Assembly: GCF_001434895.1 (NCBI RefSeq)
Contig: NZ_AZEE01000027.1
Coordinates: 384,538 to 448,537, forward strand
Source of the DNA: Secundilactobacillus odoratitofui DSM 19909 = JCM 15043
GTDB lineage: Bacteria; Bacillota; Bacilli; Lactobacillales; Lactobacillaceae
Length of the DNA: 64,000 nt
Direction of reading: 5' to 3'
Numbering within the stretch: position 1 is the first letter of the stretch; every line of letters starts with the position of its first letter. A model generated the notes under the pieces. It was given only the letters and a program-made list of their open reading frames with translations. It ran no database searches and had not been told where the DNA came from. The translations under genes and the position numbers were made by a program. Positions 3,137 to 63,641 of the stretch are shown in pieces.

Positions 3137-3173
3137 GATTAGTTGCGGCGCTTTGCCATTATCTAGTCGAAAC

Positions 3174-3285
3174 GCGAAAAATGAAACAGCACCCGGCCGT
3201 ATAACAACGCCCACCATAAAAACCAAGTTCGGGTTTTTATGGTGGGCGTTATTATACTCTGGGTGCTACCCGTTTCATTTTTTGC
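3174..3285. repeat. HPE hairpin element, copy 1
   Basis: Long hairpin between convergent genes. Outer helix H1: 14 bases at 3174-3187 pair with 3272-3285, with one G-T wobble. Helix H2: AGCACCC 3188-3194 with GGGTGCT 3261-3267. A 4-base bulge ACCC lies at 3268-3271. The internal loop is GGCCG 3195-3199 opposite CTCT 3257-3260. Helix H3 begins TATAA/TTATA and is capped by the loop AAGTTCG. It can end transcription in both directions. It shares the internal loop and bulge with copies at 7.2, 28.7 and 62.5 kb. A 15-base flank at 3157-3171 recurs exactly at 23419-23433. Confidence 0.85.
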
Positions 3286-3286
3286 T

Positions 3287-3544
3287 CTATCTCTTTATCT
3301 TCACCCGCACATCAGCTGGTTTATCCGTGTCCGTTGGGTGGAGTTCTTCTTGATAGTCAAAATCTGCTTTTTGGAAATAGTTCTTTACTTCCGCGTTAAC
3401 GGTTTCGAGGCTCCGCGTATCATTGTCCTGTTGCTTGATCAACAATGTATATTCGTTGGCGTCTTCGTCAGCGTTTTCAAATTCGTAGATCACTGCTACC
3501 GTGTTCAGAATCTCTTGAATTAACTGTCGTTCTGTCATTGCCAT
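3287..3544 (-). CDS. Small acidic protein of unknown function
   Basis: 85-residue soluble protein with no recognised domain; it is acidic in the middle and ends in a basic tail (VRVKIKR). The pattern suggests an N-terminal helix (ERQLIQEILNTVAVIYEFE) and a mixed C-terminal part. AGAGGT nine bases before the ATG at 3544 supports the start. It stands alone, convergent with the acetyltransferase gene, and its stop codon lies two bases beyond the HPE hairpin. A CopY/BlaI-like box lies 30 bases upstream. I do not recognise the family. Confidence 0.75.
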   Translation of the reverse strand: MAMTERQLIQEILNTVAVIYEFENADEDANEYTLLIKQQDNDTRSLETVNAEVKNYFQKADFDYQEELHPTDTDKPADVRVKIKR

Positions 3545-6180: not shown

Positions 6181-6978
6181 ATGCAGCAAACCAATCAACG
6201 ATTACTAAAGATGGACCATGGCTACAACTTCCGTGAACTGGGTGGCTACCAAACTGCCGACGGTCACACAGTCAAGTGGCAGCGTGTGATCCGCACGGCA
6301 ACCCTCGCCTTTCTATCAAAACAAGATCAACAATCACTGGTTGACTATGGCGTTAACGTCGATATTGATTTCCGGTCTAACGCCGAAGTCGCCAAGTCCC
6401 CGGACCTCATTCCTGCGTCAATCAGTTACCACCATCTGCCCGTTTTTCCAGAGGATCAGACCGAAGTTTCAAAATCTGAGGCTGAAATAAAAGCAGAACT
6501 CGCTAAACGCGAGGAAAATGGCTATCAACATATGCTGGATACTTATCAGGAAATGATTACAACTAGCCAATCACATCAGGCTTACCAAGCCTTCTTTGCA
6601 GCCTTGCTTGCCAACACGAGTGACAAGCAAACGCTACTTTTCCATTGCACAGCTGGTAAAGACCGTACTGGTATGGGCGCTGTTTTCCTACTATCGGCAC
6701 TTGGTGTACCTCATGAACTCATTAAACAAGATTATCTACTTACCAACGAAGCACTGTCACCACTTATTACAGATCGGTTAACCAAAGCTCAAAATGAAGG
6801 GATTACGGGAACAACTCTCGAATCAATCAAGGCCCTGATGACCGTTTCAAGTGACTATTTTGATACAGCGATGGCTGCTGTTAAGGCACAGTACGGCGAT
6901 ATGGCCCACTTTTTGACGGATGCCTTGGCGCTGTCAGATCAGGACATTGCTGATTTGAAGCAACTTTACCTTGATTGA
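6181..6978 (+). CDS. Tyrosine/serine protein phosphatase
   Basis: 265-residue Y_phosphatase3-family protein with the P-loop HCTAGKDRTG (about residues 155-164), holding the catalytic Cys and Arg. The N-terminal NFRELGGY and DFRSNAE motifs are also typical. These enzymes remove phosphate from phosphotyrosine, phosphoserine or phosphoinositides. The first ATG has AAGGAGG seven bases upstream. No signal peptide is seen, so it is probably cytoplasmic. It is a single gene followed by the repeat-rich region at 7.0-7.28 kb. Confidence 0.9.
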   Translation: MQQTNQRLLKMDHGYNFRELGGYQTADGHTVKWQRVIRTATLAFLSKQDQQSLVDYGVNVDIDFRSNAEVAKSPDLIPASISYHHLPVFPEDQTEVSKSEAEIKAELAKREENGYQHMLDTYQEMITTSQSHQAYQAFFAALLANTSDKQTLLFHCTAGKDRTGMGAVFLLSALGVPHELIKQDYLLTNEALSPLITDRLTKAQNEGITGTTLESIKALMTVSSDYFDTAMAAVKAQYGDMAHFLTDALALSDQDIADLKQLYLD

Positions 6979-7012: not shown

Positions 7013-7228
7013 GTTCAGAATATTCACCTCTCTGATTTTACATTGACTAAACCCCAGATAGGCTTCCTGACTTCGTCGGGTCGTGCGACAAAGGTCAACA
7101 CCCGGCCGTGTAGACAACTTAATCAAATATTCAAGTTCAGAATATTCGCTTTTCTAATTTTACATTGACTAAACCTGCGACAAAAATCAACGACCGGCCA
7201 TGTAAGCAACATCTTCAAATATTCAAGT
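7013..7228 (+). repeat. Partial tandem duplication carrying HPE half-copies
   Basis: Two imperfect units follow each other, 7013-7134 and 7135-7228. Each starts GTTCAGAATATTC, contains TTTTACATTGACTAAACC, then GCGACAAA, a CCGGCCR motif and AAATATTCAA. The first unit has about 28 extra bases (7055-7084). The left HPE arm at 7085-7134 lacks its right partner, so it is a broken copy. The second unit leads into the complete copy at 7179-7280. No gene lies in 6979-7305. Confidence 0.75.
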
Positions 7229-7280
7229 TCAGAATATTCGAAGATGTTGCTTACACTCTGGTCGTTAACCGATTTTTGTC
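7179..7280. repeat. HPE hairpin element, copy 2
   Basis: H1: GACAAAAATC 7179-7188 pairs perfectly with GATTTTTGTC 7271-7280. H2: AACGACC 7189-7195 with GGTCGTT 7260-7266. Bulge AACC 7267-7270. Internal loop GGCCA 7196-7200 opposite CTCT 7256-7259. H3 starts TGTA/TACA and is capped by AAGTTCA. It lies only 25 bases upstream of the hydrolase start at 7306, so it sits in that gene's leader unless a promoter hides inside it. Confidence 0.85.
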
Positions 7281-7305
7281 TCACTCTAAATAATAGGAGA
7301 CCGCA

Positions 7306-8235
7306 TTGAAAAAATCACTTTTAAAACTTGGTTTACCCCTGACTGCTGTTGCAGCTGGGACACTTTACATGAGCAACAAACTCTTTGACATTGCATTTAA
7401 ACGCGTGAAAGAAGTACCAGCAACTTCCGAAGAAAAGCAAAAGTATGCTGACCAGTACTACGCGTACGTCGACTGGTTTCGCCACATTCCCCAAGAAACT
7501 TGGTACCTCAACGAACACGACCCTAAGAAACGCTTAGTTGCAACGTTTATCCAGCACCCTGATCACCTCAAAAAAACCGTTGTTATTTCTCACGGCTATA
7601 AAGGTAATCGCGAAACGATGGCCAACTATGCCAAAATGTTTTATGACATGGGCTATAACGTGTTGCTTCCCGATGATCGCGCCCACGGTGATAGCGCCGG
7701 CGAATATATCAGCTTTGGTTGGTTAGACCGATTAGACTACCTTAGTTGGATCAATAAGCTATTGGCCGTCAAAGGTGAAGACGAACGAATCTTGCTCTTC
7801 GGCGTTAGCATGGGTGGCGCTACCATGGAAATGCTGTCAGGCGAAAACTTACCGACTCAGGTCAAAGCCATCATCGCTGACTGCGGTTACTCCAGCATCA
7901 AAGAAGAGCTGATTTACCTCCTAAAGGAACAATATCACCTGCCAGAATATCCGTTTGAGCCAATGGTCAGCACGATTAATCGTCAACGCTTAGGCTACTA
8001 TCTCGGTGACGTTTCATCTAAAACACAGTTGGCTAAGAATCGTCGGCCAATTTTATTCATCCATGGCGGTAAGGATACCTACGTTCCCGTCCACATGGCC
8101 TACGAAAACTATCGGGCAACCAAAGCACCAAAACAGCTTTGGATCGTCAAAAATGCGACCCACGCCGAAAGCTTCTGGTATAACCCCGAAGCGTACAAGC
8201 AACGCGTCACATCATTCCTAAAAACTTATTTTTGA
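7306..8235 (+). CDS. Membrane-anchored alpha/beta hydrolase
   Basis: 309-residue protein with an N-terminal hydrophobic anchor (residues 5-23) and an alpha/beta hydrolase domain. The nucleophile elbow is GVSMGGA, the oxyanion region ISHGYKGN, and the catalytic His lies in NATHAESFWYNPE near the C-terminus. It resembles the YqkD/S9-like hydrolases of Gram-positive bacteria, which face the outside of the membrane. The start is TTG at 7306 with AGGAG seven bases before. There is no room for a normal promoter between the HPE hairpin (ends 7280) and this start. Substrate unknown. Confidence 0.85.
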   Translation: MKKSLLKLGLPLTAVAAGTLYMSNKLFDIAFKRVKEVPATSEEKQKYADQYYAYVDWFRHIPQETWYLNEHDPKKRLVATFIQHPDHLKKTVVISHGYKGNRETMANYAKMFYDMGYNVLLPDDRAHGDSAGEYISFGWLDRLDYLSWINKLLAVKGEDERILLFGVSMGGATMEMLSGENLPTQVKAIIADCGYSSIKEELIYLLKEQYHLPEYPFEPMVSTINRQRLGYYLGDVSSKTQLAKNRRPILFIHGGKDTYVPVHMAYENYRATKAPKQLWIVKNATHAESFWYNPEAYKQRVTSFLKTYF

Positions 8236-20666: not shown

Positions 20667-20894
20667 AAAAAATCGCCCCTGCTACGTTCAAATAACGCAA
20701 CAGGGACGATTGGACTAACCGTGGTACCACCCAGCTTAGGCGCACTACACGCCTCACTCACTAGATGATAACGGTTCTAGTTATTCTCCGATGGTGCACC
20801 TCAGTAATTCACGTGTTAGCCCTGATCGGTTCGCAGCAACCACCGACTTCCTGACACCCAGACTAGACGCTACTTAAGGTGAAGTGCAATTAGT
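20667..20894 (-). promoter_or_regulatory. T-box leader, tyrosine specifier (TAC)
   Basis: Minus-strand leader. The T-box sequence GGGTGGTACCACGG is at 20732-20719, and the competing terminator (GTCCCTGTTGCG with CGTAGCAGGGGC) ends in six Ts at 20672-20667. Stem I has the AGTA of the loop E motif on its 5' side and GAA on the 3' side. One base after GAA comes TAC at 20806-20804. The methionine leader at 55.4-55.7 kb has ATG at exactly the same offset, which supports the reading. The promoter is TTGCAC 20929-20924 and TACCAT 20906-20901, 17-base spacer. It controls the NhaC-like gene. Confidence 0.88.
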
Positions 20895-26981: not shown

Positions 26982-27018
26982 AAAGCGGTACTCGCCGTGA
27001 TTGGCAGGCCGCTTTTTT
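26982..27018 (+). terminator. Terminator after the USP gene
   Basis: AAAGCGG at 26982-26988 pairs with CCGCTTTTTT at 27009-27018. It is short and GC-rich with a clear T run. Confidence 0.75.
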
Positions 27019-27058
27019 GCACACTCAATATCGCATAAACTACTTAAGGGGGAAGCCT

Positions 27059-28669
27059 ATGGCACAACCGAAGTTTAAAAAAATCACCCTATTCCAGCTA
27101 ATCATGTTGGCACTGGGGTCACTCATTGGTTCCGGCTGGCTATTCGGCTCATGGGAAGCCACGAAAATTGCCGGACCAGCCGCCATTATTTCATGGGTGA
27201 TTGGGGGCTTAGTCATTGGTTCTATTGCCTATGACTACGTTGAAATTGGCGCAATGTTTCCAGAATCTGGCGGGATGAGTAAGTACGCCCAGTATTCTCA
27301 TGGCTCGCTGCTCGGCTTCATCGCCGCCTGGGCCAACTGGGTCTCGTTGATCACACTGATTCCGATTGAAGCCGTTGCGGCCGTTCAATACATGAGTACC
27401 TGGCCATGGTCGTGGGCCAAGTGGACGCATCGCTTTTTAAGTAATGGTGTGATTACAACAACCGGCCTATTCGTTGTATTTGGCTTTATTATCGTCTTTA
27501 CCCTACTGAATTTTTGGTCGGTCACGATTTTGACGCACTTTACGAGTCTGATTTCAGTTTTCAAAATCGGGATCCCAATTCTTACCATTGTGATGCTCAC
27601 TATGTCAGGTTTTCACCCAGGCAACTATGGACATTCACTGCACGAGTTCATGCCATATGGCTCAGCGCCAATTTTCACCGCGACTTCAGCAGCTGGTATT
27701 ATTTTCTCATTTGACGCCTTCCAAACCGTGATCAACATGGGTGGCGAAATTGAGCATCCTAAGAAAAATATCGGCCGTGGGATTACGATTTCACTCCTGA
27801 TCAGCGGCATTCTCTACGTCATTTTACAAAGTACCTTTATTACTGCCATTCCACCTAAGATGATTGCCGCCACTGGCTGGCACGGTATCGTATTCAACTC
27901 GCCATTTGCTGATATGGCCATCCTGCTTGGCATTCACTGGCTATCCGTGCTTTTATACATGGACGCCTTTGTCTCGCCATTTGGGACCGGCGTTTCCTTC
28001 GTCGCTAATACCGCACGGGCACTCTTTGCCATGGAGGGTAACCGTCACGTGCCACACTTCCTGGGTAAAATTAACCTCAAATATGGCATCCCACGAGCAG
28101 CGATGCTGGTTAATACGCTTCTCAGTATGGTCATGGTTTCCGTTTTCCGGTCATGGGCCGTCTTGGCGACCGTGCTCTCCACCGCCACCCTCATTGCCTA
28201 TTTGACAGGGCCGGTAACAGCCATTTCGTTACGGAAAATGGGGCCCAATTTGTTCCGACCAATTCGCTTGAAGTGGCTTTCCTGGATGGCACCACTCTCA
28301 TTCGTACTAGCCTCGCTAGCAACCTACTGGGCGATGTGGCCGACCACGGTACAAGTCATTTTAATTATTCTATTGGGCCTGCCGTTTTACTTTTACTACG
28401 AATGGAAAACCAATTTCGTATCGACCAAGGCAGCTTTTAAAGCGAGTGGTTGGATGATTGGTTATCTGATTTTCATTTCAATTATGTCTTACATCGGTAG
28501 CCACCAATTCAACGGTCAAAACTGGTTACCATATCCGCTGGATTTTGTCGTGATCATCGTTGTCTCACTCCTGTTCTACTATTGGGGAATCAAGAGCTAC
28601 GTTGTGACCGAAGATTTTCATAAAGCGGAAAAACTAAATCAAGCTGCGAAGAAACTTGCAGACGAGTAA
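27059..28669 (+). CDS. APC-family amino acid permease
   Basis: 536-residue transporter with 12 or more membrane helices. The first helix carries the substrate-binding motif GSLIGSGWLFGSW, and helix 6 has IIFSFDAFQTVINMGGEIEHPKKN, as in amino acid/polyamine/organocation permeases. It probably imports an amino acid by proton symport. The ATG at 27059 follows AAGGGGG at seven bases. Single gene; HPE copy 3 follows directly after its stop. Specificity cannot be read. Confidence 0.9.
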   Translation: MAQPKFKKITLFQLIMLALGSLIGSGWLFGSWEATKIAGPAAIISWVIGGLVIGSIAYDYVEIGAMFPESGGMSKYAQYSHGSLLGFIAAWANWVSLITLIPIEAVAAVQYMSTWPWSWAKWTHRFLSNGVITTTGLFVVFGFIIVFTLLNFWSVTILTHFTSLISVFKIGIPILTIVMLTMSGFHPGNYGHSLHEFMPYGSAPIFTATSAAGIIFSFDAFQTVINMGGEIEHPKKNIGRGITISLLISGILYVILQSTFITAIPPKMIAATGWHGIVFNSPFADMAILLGIHWLSVLLYMDAFVSPFGTGVSFVANTARALFAMEGNRHVPHFLGKINLKYGIPRAAMLVNTLLSMVMVSVFRSWAVLATVLSTATLIAYLTGPVTAISLRKMGPNLFRPIRLKWLSWMAPLSFVLASLATYWAMWPTTVQVILIILLGLPFYFYYEWKTNFVSTKAAFKASGWMIGYLIFISIMSYIGSHQFNGQNWLPYPLDFVVIIVVSLLFYYWGIKSYVVTEDFHKAEKLNQAAKKLADE

Positions 28670-28680
28670 AACCTTTAAAA

Positions 28681-28877
28681 GGTGAGTGGGCAGAAAATCG
28701 TTTAGGTCCCAGAATATAAGAAGACCAGCCCGTGGATTCCTGGTTTTGGAATCTACGGGCTGGTCTTTTTATATGGCCGGGACCTGATTTTTTGCGCACG
28801 TTTAGACCAGATAACAGTCCTGAGTTAAAGTGAAATTTTTTACTCACTTCGAGTTAAGAAATAAATTCGATACTTAC
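28681..28877 (-). repeat. HPE hairpin element, copy 3, with extended flank
   Basis: On the minus strand: H1 GCAAAAAATC/GATTTTCTGC (28795-28786 with 28699-28690), H2 AGGTCCC/GGGACCT (28785-28779 with 28710-28704), bulge AAAC (28703-28700), internal loop GGCCA opposite TTCT. The 197-base stretch aligns over its whole length with the opposite-strand copy at 62375-62565, including a flank that contains AACTCGAAGTGAGT. Part of H3 differs between the two copies by paired changes. It follows the permease stop by 11 bases and may serve as its terminator. Confidence 0.85.
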
Positions 28878-36119: not shown

Positions 36120-36204
36120 AGTAGTTCTCCCAGTCAATTCCGTTATCTTACTATGATAGCACCTTTAGCAGTTGACCCCAACTAAATATTGAGGTGACGA
36201 AAAA

Positions 36205-36270
36205 CCCAAAAATCAAACAGGCAACTCACAGATTCCCAATGCCTGGAATCAGCGAGTTGCCTGATTTTGA
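36205..36270 (-). terminator. Terminator after the MFS gene
   Basis: CAGGCAACTC near 36218-36227 pairs with GAGTTGCCTG at 36254-36263; GATTCC/GGAATC forms an inner helix. T-rich on the minus strand. Confidence 0.75.
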
Positions 36271-36331
36271 TAACTGTTATTCAATTATTGATTGAGCTTA
36301 TAGAAAATCAATCTAACTCAATCAATCTATT

Positions 36332-49970: not shown

Positions 49971-50033
49971 GCCTCCAGTCAGTTTTGGGGCGGGTAGCAG
50001 TGACTGGTACCCGCCCCAAAACTGACTGGAGGC
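49971..50033 (-). repeat. MPR palindromic repeat, copy F (minimal form)
   Basis: A perfect 26-bp stem (49971-49996 with 50008-50033) around an 11-base loop that keeps only the AGTCACTGC-type motif. On the minus strand the flanks are CCTTCGGCC and GGCGCTACGG, as in copies B and D. It is the longest perfect stem in the window. Confidence 0.82.
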
Positions 50034-55395: not shown

Positions 55396-55711
55396 AAAAA
55401 AAGCATCTCCGTCTCTTCTCATTTAGAAAAGGACGAAAATGCTTTCGCGTTACCACCTTAGTTCGAATACCCCTCACGAGATATTCCTCGATGGGTACAA
55501 CTAACGACGGTAATTAAGTACTTACTAGTTAGTGCATACCCTTGCTCTATAACGGGAGTTCCCGCCACAACTTTGCAACTGCTCAGCTGTGGAGCGATCA
55601 TCAAGGCCATATTCAGTCGCAGATTGACGTAACCTCTCACCAAATGGTTACTCTCTTGGGACAATCAAAGGACTTACTCACCTTGTCGCTACGTTCGTAT
55701 TTAACAACTTG
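55396..55711 (-). promoter_or_regulatory. T-box leader, methionine specifier (ATG)
   Basis: Minus-strand leader. T-box core GGTGGTAACGCG at 55457-55446. The terminator (GCATTTTCGTCC with GACGGAGATGC) ends in seven Ts at 55402-55396. In Stem I, AGTA opposes GAA and the specifier ATG follows one base after GAA at 55610-55608. The promoter is TTGACT 55746-55741 and CATACT 55723-55718, 17-base spacer. It fits the metNIQ genes downstream. It takes up most of the first half of the gene-free stretch 55353-56227. Confidence 0.9.
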
Positions 55712-62374: not shown

Positions 62375-62565
62375 TAAGCATCGAATTAATTTCTTAACTC
62401 GAAGTGAGTTAAACATTTCACTTTATCTCAAGTCTGTTATCTAGCCTAATCGTGCACCAAAACTCAGGTCCCGGCCATATAAAACAACGGCCCGTAGATT
62501 CCAAAACCAGGAATCCACGGGCCGTTGTTTTATATTCTGGGACCTAAACGAGTTTTTGCCCACTC
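62375..62565 (+). repeat. HPE hairpin element, copy 4, with extended flank
   Basis: H1 AAAACTC/GAGTTTT (62459-62465, 62550-62556). H2 AGGTCCC 62466-62472 with GGGACCT 62539-62545. Bulge AAAC 62546-62549. Internal loop GGCCA 62473-62477 opposite TTCT 62535-62538. H3 starts TATAAA/TTTATA and is capped by a 7-base loop. Its reverse complement aligns with 28681-28877 along the whole length. It lies between the reductase stop and the amidase stop (convergent genes) and could terminate both. Confidence 0.87.
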
Positions 62566-62585
62566 TCTCCACTTGCATTAAACCG

Positions 62586-63641
62586 CTAAATCGTATTTTC
62601 ACCTGGCTGCCACTCGTTCTTTTCATCAAATGGCCGTGCAGTCTGTTTTGAAATAAAACTAAAGTACCGAATATCTGAACCCCAGTCAGCTGGATCACCA
62701 TACGAGAGTGACCGCAGATCTCGGTTATCGTAAGTAAAGGCGTACAACATCTTTTGTTTGATATCATAGCCAGCTGTGTACTGTGTCCAAGCAACCAACG
62801 TGTCATCACCTTCGCCAATTCGAAGTGACCCTTTTGGCGTATTCACCGCCGTTAATAATTGGTAGGCCTGATTTAATGCTTCATCATCATTGACTTCAAC
62901 GGACATTAGCTTCGACATGGCGGCGCGCAGAAATCTTGACTCCGGCTTGTAATCGGCTGGTATTCCAACGAGGCCACTGGTTGGCTCACTTAACTTAATT
63001 TGAGCAATTGGTTCAGCAACGTCGTATGAATAGGTCCGTTTGGTTGTCCGTTCCAGCCACGTTTTCAAATTGTTCAGGTGCCAATCGAAAGTAGGCGCAT
63101 TGGTGAAGACACCAAGTGGATTTTCAAAAATTTGAAAGCCGTTTTCCACGGACGGTTCAATCACAATTGACCGGCCAGTTTCGTCATGCATCACACAATG
63201 TTGCGGTACGGACATGCCCATCATCGGTCCGGGCTCGGTTGTGATACCAATATCACGACCCAGATTGACTTTAATATCATCTAAGGACTTGTAGTGGGTC
63301 AAAATCCAAGTACACAGTTCTTCACCACGAATCGCCGTTTTGCCACTTGCCTTAATCACTTCAGTTGGGACGTAACGATAGAAATGATCAAAGTAAAAGG
63401 TGCCGCCGCACAAGCCGTACTCGTTAATACCGTCTAAAAACACAGGGGCGTGATGAATATCCTTGGCCCAAACAATGCCCATCACATTTCGTTCACTCGC
63501 AAACGGTGTGTAAGCATTTACGAAGGTATATCCCTTCGGCAGTTTTACACCGGCATACTCAAAGTGCTGTTCAAAGTCCTGCGTCCGAGCCCAATAGGGG
63601 TTGCCCTGCCGACTAATAAGTTCAATTCCTGTACAAGCCAT
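62586..63641 (-). CDS. Choloylglycine-hydrolase-family amidase (Ntn hydrolase)
   Basis: 351-residue linear amide C-N hydrolase of the bile-salt-hydrolase/penicillin-V-acylase family. The nucleophile should be the Cys in MACTG; Arg in ARTQDFE and the asparagines and aspartates of NEYGLCGGTFYF and FTNAPTFDWH fit the family. Unusually, Ala lies between Met1 and the Cys, so two residues must be removed to free the N-terminal nucleophile. AAAGGAG precedes the ATG. Whether it prefers bile salts, penicillin V or acyl-homoserine lactones cannot be told. The DUF606 gene lies 23 bases upstream in the same direction. Confidence 0.88.
   Translation of the reverse strand: MACTGIELISRQGNPYWARTQDFEQHFEYAGVKLPKGYTFVNAYTPFASERNVMGIVWAKDIHHAPVFLDGINEYGLCGGTFYFDHFYRYVPTEVIKASGKTAIRGEELCTWILTHYKSLDDIKVNLGRDIGITTEPGPMMGMSVPQHCVMHDETGRSIVIEPSVENGFQIFENPLGVFTNAPTFDWHLNNLKTWLERTTKRTYSYDVAEPIAQIKLSEPTSGLVGIPADYKPESRFLRAAMSKLMSVEVNDDEALNQAYQLLTAVNTPKGSLRIGEGDDTLVAWTQYTAGYDIKQKMLYAFTYDNRDLRSLSYGDPADWGSDIRYFSFISKQTARPFDEKNEWQPGENTI

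Follow-up and report, generated by a model that had tools for sequence, protein, structure and literature searches.

A family of structures of about 130 bases, absent from Rfam, occurs in lactobacilli and some other Bacilli, for the most part directly behind the stop codons of genes that are unrelated to one another. We met it as four hairpins in a 64,000-nt window (the whole stretch of DNA that was analysed) of the Secundilactobacillus odoratitofui genome. Its copies keep one architecture while their helices covary, show mismatches that differ in kind between the strands, usually adjoin a gene end in sense, recur at orthologous genes and have close relatives at unlinked genes. The reading we prefer, with a probability of about 0.5, is that the family is a dispersed mRNA 3'-end element that would stand in for terminators and be bound by a putative factor.

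Four hairpins of one plan in the window

The sequence-only reading of the window had described four hairpins with a common plan, at 3.2, 7.2, 28.7 and 62.5 kb, and we found all of them. The four bulges (ACCC, AACC, AAAC and AAAC), the H2 arms (AGCACCC, AACGACC, AGGTCCC and AGGTCCC) and the internal loop of GGCC opposite TCT are in the sequence as it gave them, and the copy at 28.7 kb is oriented opposite to the other three. The plan stood but the size did not, as the element extends over about 130 bp instead of 112 (Table 1). The strand used at 3.2 kb had to be reversed: taking it at face value was ruled out by the neighbouring genes together with the mismatch asymmetry, which select the other strand. 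That account also overlooked the lock to stop codons, the strand specificity and the dozens of further copies.

As DNA, the four hairpins are more stable than their dinucleotide shuffles by 10.6 to 13.1 s.d., and 0/200 shuffles fold as well; for RNA of either strand, z ranges from -10.0 to -13.4. In RNA a smaller CC/T loop is possible, since the GG of GGCC and the CT of TCT can pair. The family model R2, trained on 26 diverse copies taken in mRNA sense, gave nine rows in the window. The four hairpins score 118-130 bits, three rows are their antisense echoes (36-46 bits), and the remaining two are weak and partial, with E 0.08 and 0.69. The first three bases of copy 1 (3289-3287, TAG) are the stop codon of an 85-aa ORF, 3287-3544(-), for which a Pfam search gave no match. 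Copy 2 is the exception among the four, as the gene list shows no end next to it in sense; its neighbours, 6181-6978 and 7306-8235, are both on the + strand.

Other structures were seen in the window. A weak match to the family model R1 at 36191-36305(-) (26.5 bits, E 0.015) is absent from the R2 rows at E ≤ 1 and is possibly a degenerate copy of the element. A near-perfect inverted repeat at 49971-50033, with 31-nt arms and 1 nt between them, is unmatched by either family model. Two T-box leader matches lie at 55426-55698(-), with 92.2 bits just under the Rfam gathering score of 93, and at 20699-20893(-), with 67.7 bits well under it.

Table 1. Copies of the element in the window, with the parts of copy 1
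Feature	Position	Strand	Remark
Element copy 1	3158..3289	-	R2 129.7 bits
Copy 1, H1 5' arm, 14 nt	3272..3285	-	pairs with 3174-3187
Copy 1, 4-nt bulge	3268..3271	-	GGGT in mRNA sense, ACCC on + strand
Copy 1, H2 5' arm, 7 nt	3261..3267	-	pairs with 3188-3194
Copy 1, internal loop, 3-nt side	3258..3260	-	AGA in mRNA sense
Copy 1, H3	3199..3257	-	arms 3232-3257 and 3199-3224; 7-nt apical loop 3225-3231
Copy 1, internal loop, 4-nt side	3195..3198	-	GGCC
Copy 1, GTTT tail	3170..3173	-	immediately 3' of H1 3' arm
Element copy 2	7159..7288	-	R2 match
Partial extra copy (one arm and tail) beside copy 2	7080..7158, approximate	-	by eye
Element copy 3	28682..28815	+	12 nt past stop of 27017-28669(+), amino acid permease family
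Element copy 4	62436..62567	-	18 nt past stop of 62586-63641(-), choloylglycine hydrolase family

A fixed architecture

The dimensions of the element were read from fixed anchors in 138 of 156 copies. It consists of a 14-bp helix H1, a 4-nt bulge, a 7-bp helix H2, a 3 x 4 internal loop, a long helix H3 with a 7-nt apical loop, and a GTTT tail. These 138 were retained for pairing (at least 9/14 in H1 and at least 5/7 in H2). In mRNA sense the bulge is GTTT in 54 and GGTT in 47 (G[GT]TT in 101/138), and the tail is GTTT in 98/138 and GTTA in 11/138, followed by mixed sequence. The 3-nt side of the internal loop reads AGA in 91, GAG in 15 and GGA in 15 copies, and the 4-nt side GGCC in 82, TGCA in 13 and CGGA in 10 (n = 138). 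In the 79 copies where it can be read, the apical loop resembles NGRNYTT, and column information in the alignment gives A-GA-GYG for the 5' end of the element.

The pair AGA/GGCC is usual in the host genus (46/73) and in the Lentilactobacillus-type genus g14 (32/35), and GGA/TGCA, GAG/CGGA, GTG/AATA and others are found elsewhere. Loop and bulge had been described as constant against changing helices, with random change in the loop, or its absence from most relatives, named as the mark of an ordinary terminator family. We found that the 3 x 4 size of the loop is kept (134/138) while its letters do change and are clade-specific, so the internal loop was dropped as a defining signature; between genera, the bulge and the tail vary less than the loop letters. 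Four copies (L042, L059, L110 and L117) have no internal loop and are perfect palindromes in which one loop side is rewritten as the complement of the other. In two copies of the host genome (L007 and L008), a 30-bp insert lies between a conserved CTAAA and CGTGCGCC, and a similar stretch stands beside window copy 2.

The plan extends to other families of the order. With helix and bulge lengths left free and fitted for pairing, 20 loci from these families, out of 26 drawn from genomes picked for having matches, gave a GTTT bulge in 14 and GTTT directly after H1 in 14. In seven copies from outside the order, fitted likewise, the bulge is GTTT-like, the helices are slightly shorter and 4/7 are without the GTTT tail.

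Positions 4-7 of H1 are rich in mismatches, with 129/552 in Lactobacillaceae versus 58/1380 elsewhere in H1. A purine.purine mismatch at these positions occurs in 72/138 Lactobacillaceae copies and in 47/47 units of other families, and position 5 is G.A in 45/47 of the latter. The 47 units were kept from 63, which include spurious second units, by a filter that used bulge and tail; given this filter, bulge and tail counts for other families were taken only from the 20 fitted loci or from an unfiltered set of 40.

Covariation and the selected strand

The claim that the helices covary was borne out, as we found strong covariation around helices of fixed length with conserved unpaired parts. Across 100 distinct rows, in an alignment that was fitted to the model and hence favours structure, 93.4% of cells are paired, versus 64.4% when shuffled and at most 45.1% when slid, and both partners have changed in 42/45 pairs. 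When 3' arms were exchanged among the 40 clusters of the set selected for pairing as above, H1 pairing fell from 92.7% to a mean of 63.0% (at most 68.2%) and H2 pairing from 96.4% to a mean of 61.3% (at most 70.0%).

The mismatches differ between the strands. In gene sense, Lactobacillaceae copies have 192 G.U versus 36 A.C; counted per cluster, G.U exceeds A.C in 24 versus 4 of 40, with 12 ties (sign test p 9e-5), and 28 Lactobacillaceae representatives give 21 versus 6. The G.U excess is absent from the 47 units of other families (25 versus 23; clusters 4 versus 3, with 4 ties). Purine.purine mismatches outnumber pyrimidine.pyrimidine ones by 178 to 30 in Lactobacillaceae and by 171 to 4 in other families, and outside H1 positions 4-7 this excess persists (60 versus 25 and 63 versus 4, respectively). 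All these counts compare mismatch kinds only, and those for H3 use copies with at least 80% Watson-Crick pairs there. Strand-symmetric change at the DNA level should yield neither excess. Hence, the gene-sense strand appears to be the selected strand.

RNA is the simplest reading of what carries the structure, and we infer it over single-stranded DNA, which is possible. In DNA, G.T is also a mild mismatch, so the strand test is compatible with a single-stranded-DNA element.

Position at stop codons

With simple ORF calls, 88/119 copies lie in sense to the adjoining gene end. Counted in R1 orientation, with the 3' end of the element facing the end of the oppositely oriented gene, these are 36/52 in the host, 20/30 in a genome of another genus (G238) and 32/37 in others. 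For the remaining 31/119, which include window copy 2, no gene end in sense was called; for two of these no call of either kind was made.

Stop codons were sought in the 150 nt that precede the element and in its first 25 nt. Of 119 copies examined, 83 have an ORF of 100 codons or more, and in 56 of these the stop is located -6 to +10 nt from where the element starts. In 16 different copies the G that ends a TAG stop also opens the element (position -1), with TA|GAG as the common junction. TAG accounts for 27/83 stops, for 11/67 outside the -1 class and for 11/51 among window genes; the TAG excess over window genes is confined to the -1 class.

The same position was found beyond the family. 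Among 40 loci from two other families of the order (G418 and G397; G353, G562, G482 and G486), an unfiltered set in which a few first units are spurious, 25 have an ORF (80 codons or more) whose end is no more than 150 nt away; the stop lies between -1 and +7 in 16 of them and at -1 in seven. Outside the order, 4/7 copies read come no more than 7 nt after an ORF of 100 codons or longer. Two of the copies read are on plasmids. The one from Lentilactobacillus kefiri (L347) abuts a PTS subunit IIA gene, a database-annotated CDS with the same stop-codon junction, and the one from Lactiplantibacillus plantarum (L346) has no listed gene end adjoining it in a gene table that is incomplete there.

We considered a specific gene class at the elements and rejected it, as the adjoining genes look mixed by eye from their C-termini; the Pfam run covered eight window genes.

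Copy number and hosts

No family of Rfam (release 15) reaches its gathering score on the window hairpins, eleven loci from other genera and families gave no match at E ≤ 0.1, and in a permissive search the hairpins drew sub-threshold microRNA models only. The sequence-only reading had proposed comparison with Rfam and a covariance-model search; the former places the element outside Rfam, and the latter finds the same plan across Lactobacillaceae genera and in other families.

In the host genome, a DNA similarity search gave 47 rows including echoes and fragments, and R1 gave 99 rows at E ≤ 1 and 87 at E ≤ 0.001. Less 24 overlapping echoes, the 87 rows mark at least 63 distinct places, a lower bound as 150 of 517 candidates were scored. 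The places are spread unevenly, with 4/63 on contig C5 (680 kb) versus 34/63 on contig C4 (598 kb).

At E ≤ 0.001 every one of the 15 genomes in the genus, that of the host among them, has between 1 and 121 rows; at E ≤ 1e-5 the genome with the single row drops out. In the family, R1 matches 93/301 genomes and 20/40 genera at E ≤ 1e-5 (11 candidates scored per genome). With R2, matches were found in 106/395 genomes and 32/80 genera of the order (8 candidates scored per genome) and in 12/398 genomes and 9/146 genera of the class, three of the 12 being within the order. Twenty genomes picked for having matches hold 2 to 112 rows each. Among the matches listed, the strict core pattern is hosted by Secundilactobacillus, Lentilactobacillus, Paucilactobacillus and Levilactobacillus.

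Contig C1 of G238 (2.51 Mb) has 71 rows including echoes, of which all but two (93,881 and 2,376,193) fall between 360 kb and 2.19 Mb; copies look depleted outside this range. A replication-strand bias was looked for by eye in G238, and no pattern was seen.

Relation to terminators

For 29 host genes with the element, we compared 49 orthologous or similar 3' ends from three species of the genus. The element is at that stop in 12/49 (including a degenerate one and a remnant that was spotted by eye), and 37/49 are element-free at the stop, two of them with an element nearby but elsewhere (L174 and L177). An intrinsic terminator lies within 170 nt in 25 of the 37 element-free ends. After the element tail, a terminator follows in 22/107 copies versus 25/107 in an antisense control and 3/107 in a coding control; a stricter scan gave 21/129 copies and 1/129 for the coding control. 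Hence, with terminators at most element-free ends and none in excess after elements, the element stands in the terminator's place.

A dedicated second terminator behind the element had been suspected by eye in Lentilactobacillus and was rejected, as the sense count is no higher than the antisense one. Hairpins of the type GAGGCTGGGACAAAA ... TTTTGTCCCAGCCTC with T-runs recur after elements in g14 (L099, L102, L146 and others).

The element lies at gene ends in sense orientation, as an intrinsic terminator does, and H1 has an A-rich 5' arm and a U-rich 3' arm in many copies. The T-run in the 3' arm of H1 is at least 5 in 25/138 copies, at least 4 in 70/138 and below 4 in 68/138, and the tail is not U-rich. 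The view that these are more than plain hairpins agrees with the covarying helices of fixed length and the conserved unpaired parts; the element may still have a terminator-like role.

Inheritance, dispersal and duplication

Five gene pairs from different species of the genus carry the element at the same stop with differing arms, and across genera, between G000 and G238, two clear orthologous pairs with the element show 66% and 68% identity. Copies at unlinked host genes are up to 89% identical over about 220 bp. Hence, the family also disperses. By eye, no clear target-site duplication was seen at the ends of similar host copies.

Extra copies of one arm and the tail follow many elements. 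Full units also occur in tandem, five after one gene in genome G003 (L207:274-950) and several among the loci from other families. Such extra arms and tandems are expected of hairpin slippage or unit-wise amplification.

Comparison with known repeats and RNAs

The integron attC is an imperfect palindrome at gene 3' ends, in which structure is kept, sequence is variable and bulges matter; its ends are RYYYAAC and GTTRRRY. The tail and the 5' end of the element are not of this form, and the element is at ordinary chromosomal genes while attC is in cassettes. ERIC and BOX are, like the element, dispersed structured repeats between genes, in different hosts, and we know of no stop-codon lock in either. 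The L17 downstream element is tied to one gene, and it gave no Rfam match on the window hairpins.

The last of these is a structured RNA of Lactobacillales and Listeria (PMC2864571, consulted in part), which going by its name is located downstream of a gene, as the element is. ERIC and BOX are named in the part used of a study of stem-loop repeats (PMC2267715). The same source describes Efa-1, a 163-bp repeat with 65 copies in E. faecalis that forms two adjacent stem-loops (Petrillo et al. 2008). Efa-1 and related repeats there are likewise multi-copy intergenic stem-loops in Firmicutes; in the part of that paper used, a stop-codon lock, the strand and an architecture across families are not described. 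By description rather than by sequence, Efa-1 differs in its two stem-loops from the one long hairpin seen here, and on the same footing it could be an enterococcal form of the element.

Compared by description from extracts of their sources, three further groups share some of these traits. The repeats bcr1-bcr18 of Bacillus cereus are dispersed, as here, and often transcribed in UTRs, bcr3 goes with a longer mRNA half-life, and their mobility is linked to a TTTAT motif (PMC3446304, PMC6542083). MRSC-65-2, with over 20,000 representatives in diverse phyla, is one long covarying stem often present in dozens of copies per genome, as here, and is marked by a repeated UYCCGG (PMC11109978). REP elements are palindromes of 20-40 bp tagged GTAG or CGTC (PMC3733652), versus about 130 bp for the element. 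In the portions consulted of Petrillo 2008, Kristoffersen 2012, a B. cereus mobilome paper, Weinberg 2010, a 2024 survey of 50 genomes and a terminator paper, we recognised no description of the stop-codon lock or of this architecture.

Discussion

We propose that RNA in the sense of the gene would begin to fold at the stop codon or a few bases past it, into one long hairpin of set measure: a 14-bp helix, often with purine-purine mismatches at 4-7, a G[GU]UU bulge, a 7-bp helix, a 3 x 4 loop, a helix of about 25 bp, a 7-nt loop and a GUUU tail. In the place of an ordinary intrinsic terminator, it would most likely terminate transcription and shield the 3' end, although termination or protection, like RNA itself as the carrier, is suggested here by sequence comparison. 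The constant unpaired parts (bulge, tail and loop) may be recognised by a putative trans-acting factor. Copies would spread within genomes and could then be inherited at the same gene.

Folded single-stranded DNA might instead be the substrate of a recombinase or HUH transposase, with the element inserted at gene ends like attC or REP. Such mobility would accommodate the dispersed, similar copies at unlinked genes, the tandem full units, the plasmid copies, the constant bulge and tail and the junction shared by 16 different copies; we nevertheless think it unlikely, as orientation and stop-codon lock would need a reason, the element is at the same gene in different species and its termini are unlike those of attC. 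We regard as improbable an ordinary intrinsic terminator family in which common descent has conserved extra sequence. Its helices would have kept their fixed lengths and their bulge across families despite changed arms, its T-run would be shorter than 4 in about half of the copies (68/138) and its tail would be conserved beyond any U-run, even if the location after stops, the lack of an excess of second terminators behind copies and the A-rich and U-rich arms of H1 are what it would lead one to expect.

Template switching is another way in which arms can become complementary, as shown by the perfect-palindrome copies, where the sequence of one loop side complements that of the other. A functionless, decaying palindromic repeat whose arms are kept complementary by such quasi-palindrome correction would explain them, as well as the partial duplicated arms. 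Correction of this kind should erase loops and bulges, yet the loop is kept in 134/138 copies, and a strand asymmetry of mismatches would not be expected from correction at the DNA level, so we regard this explanation as very improbable.

The mRNA 3'-end element that we prefer has a wider version, which we hold to be less likely than not. The family would then be an uncatalogued RNA class found across the Bacilli, a 3'-end module welded to stop codons; a dedicated RNA-binding factor would act on it as translation terminates or shortly afterwards, and its copying route would have stop codons in sense as the target.

If the proposal is true, a large structured RNA family would exist outside Rfam at the mRNA 3' ends of lactobacilli and their relatives, and it would point to an undiscovered RNA-binding factor. 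With sixty-odd natural copies in one genome that have different arms and the same plan, it would be directly testable. The family would also be a natural experiment in how structured elements colonise the ends of genes without breaking them.
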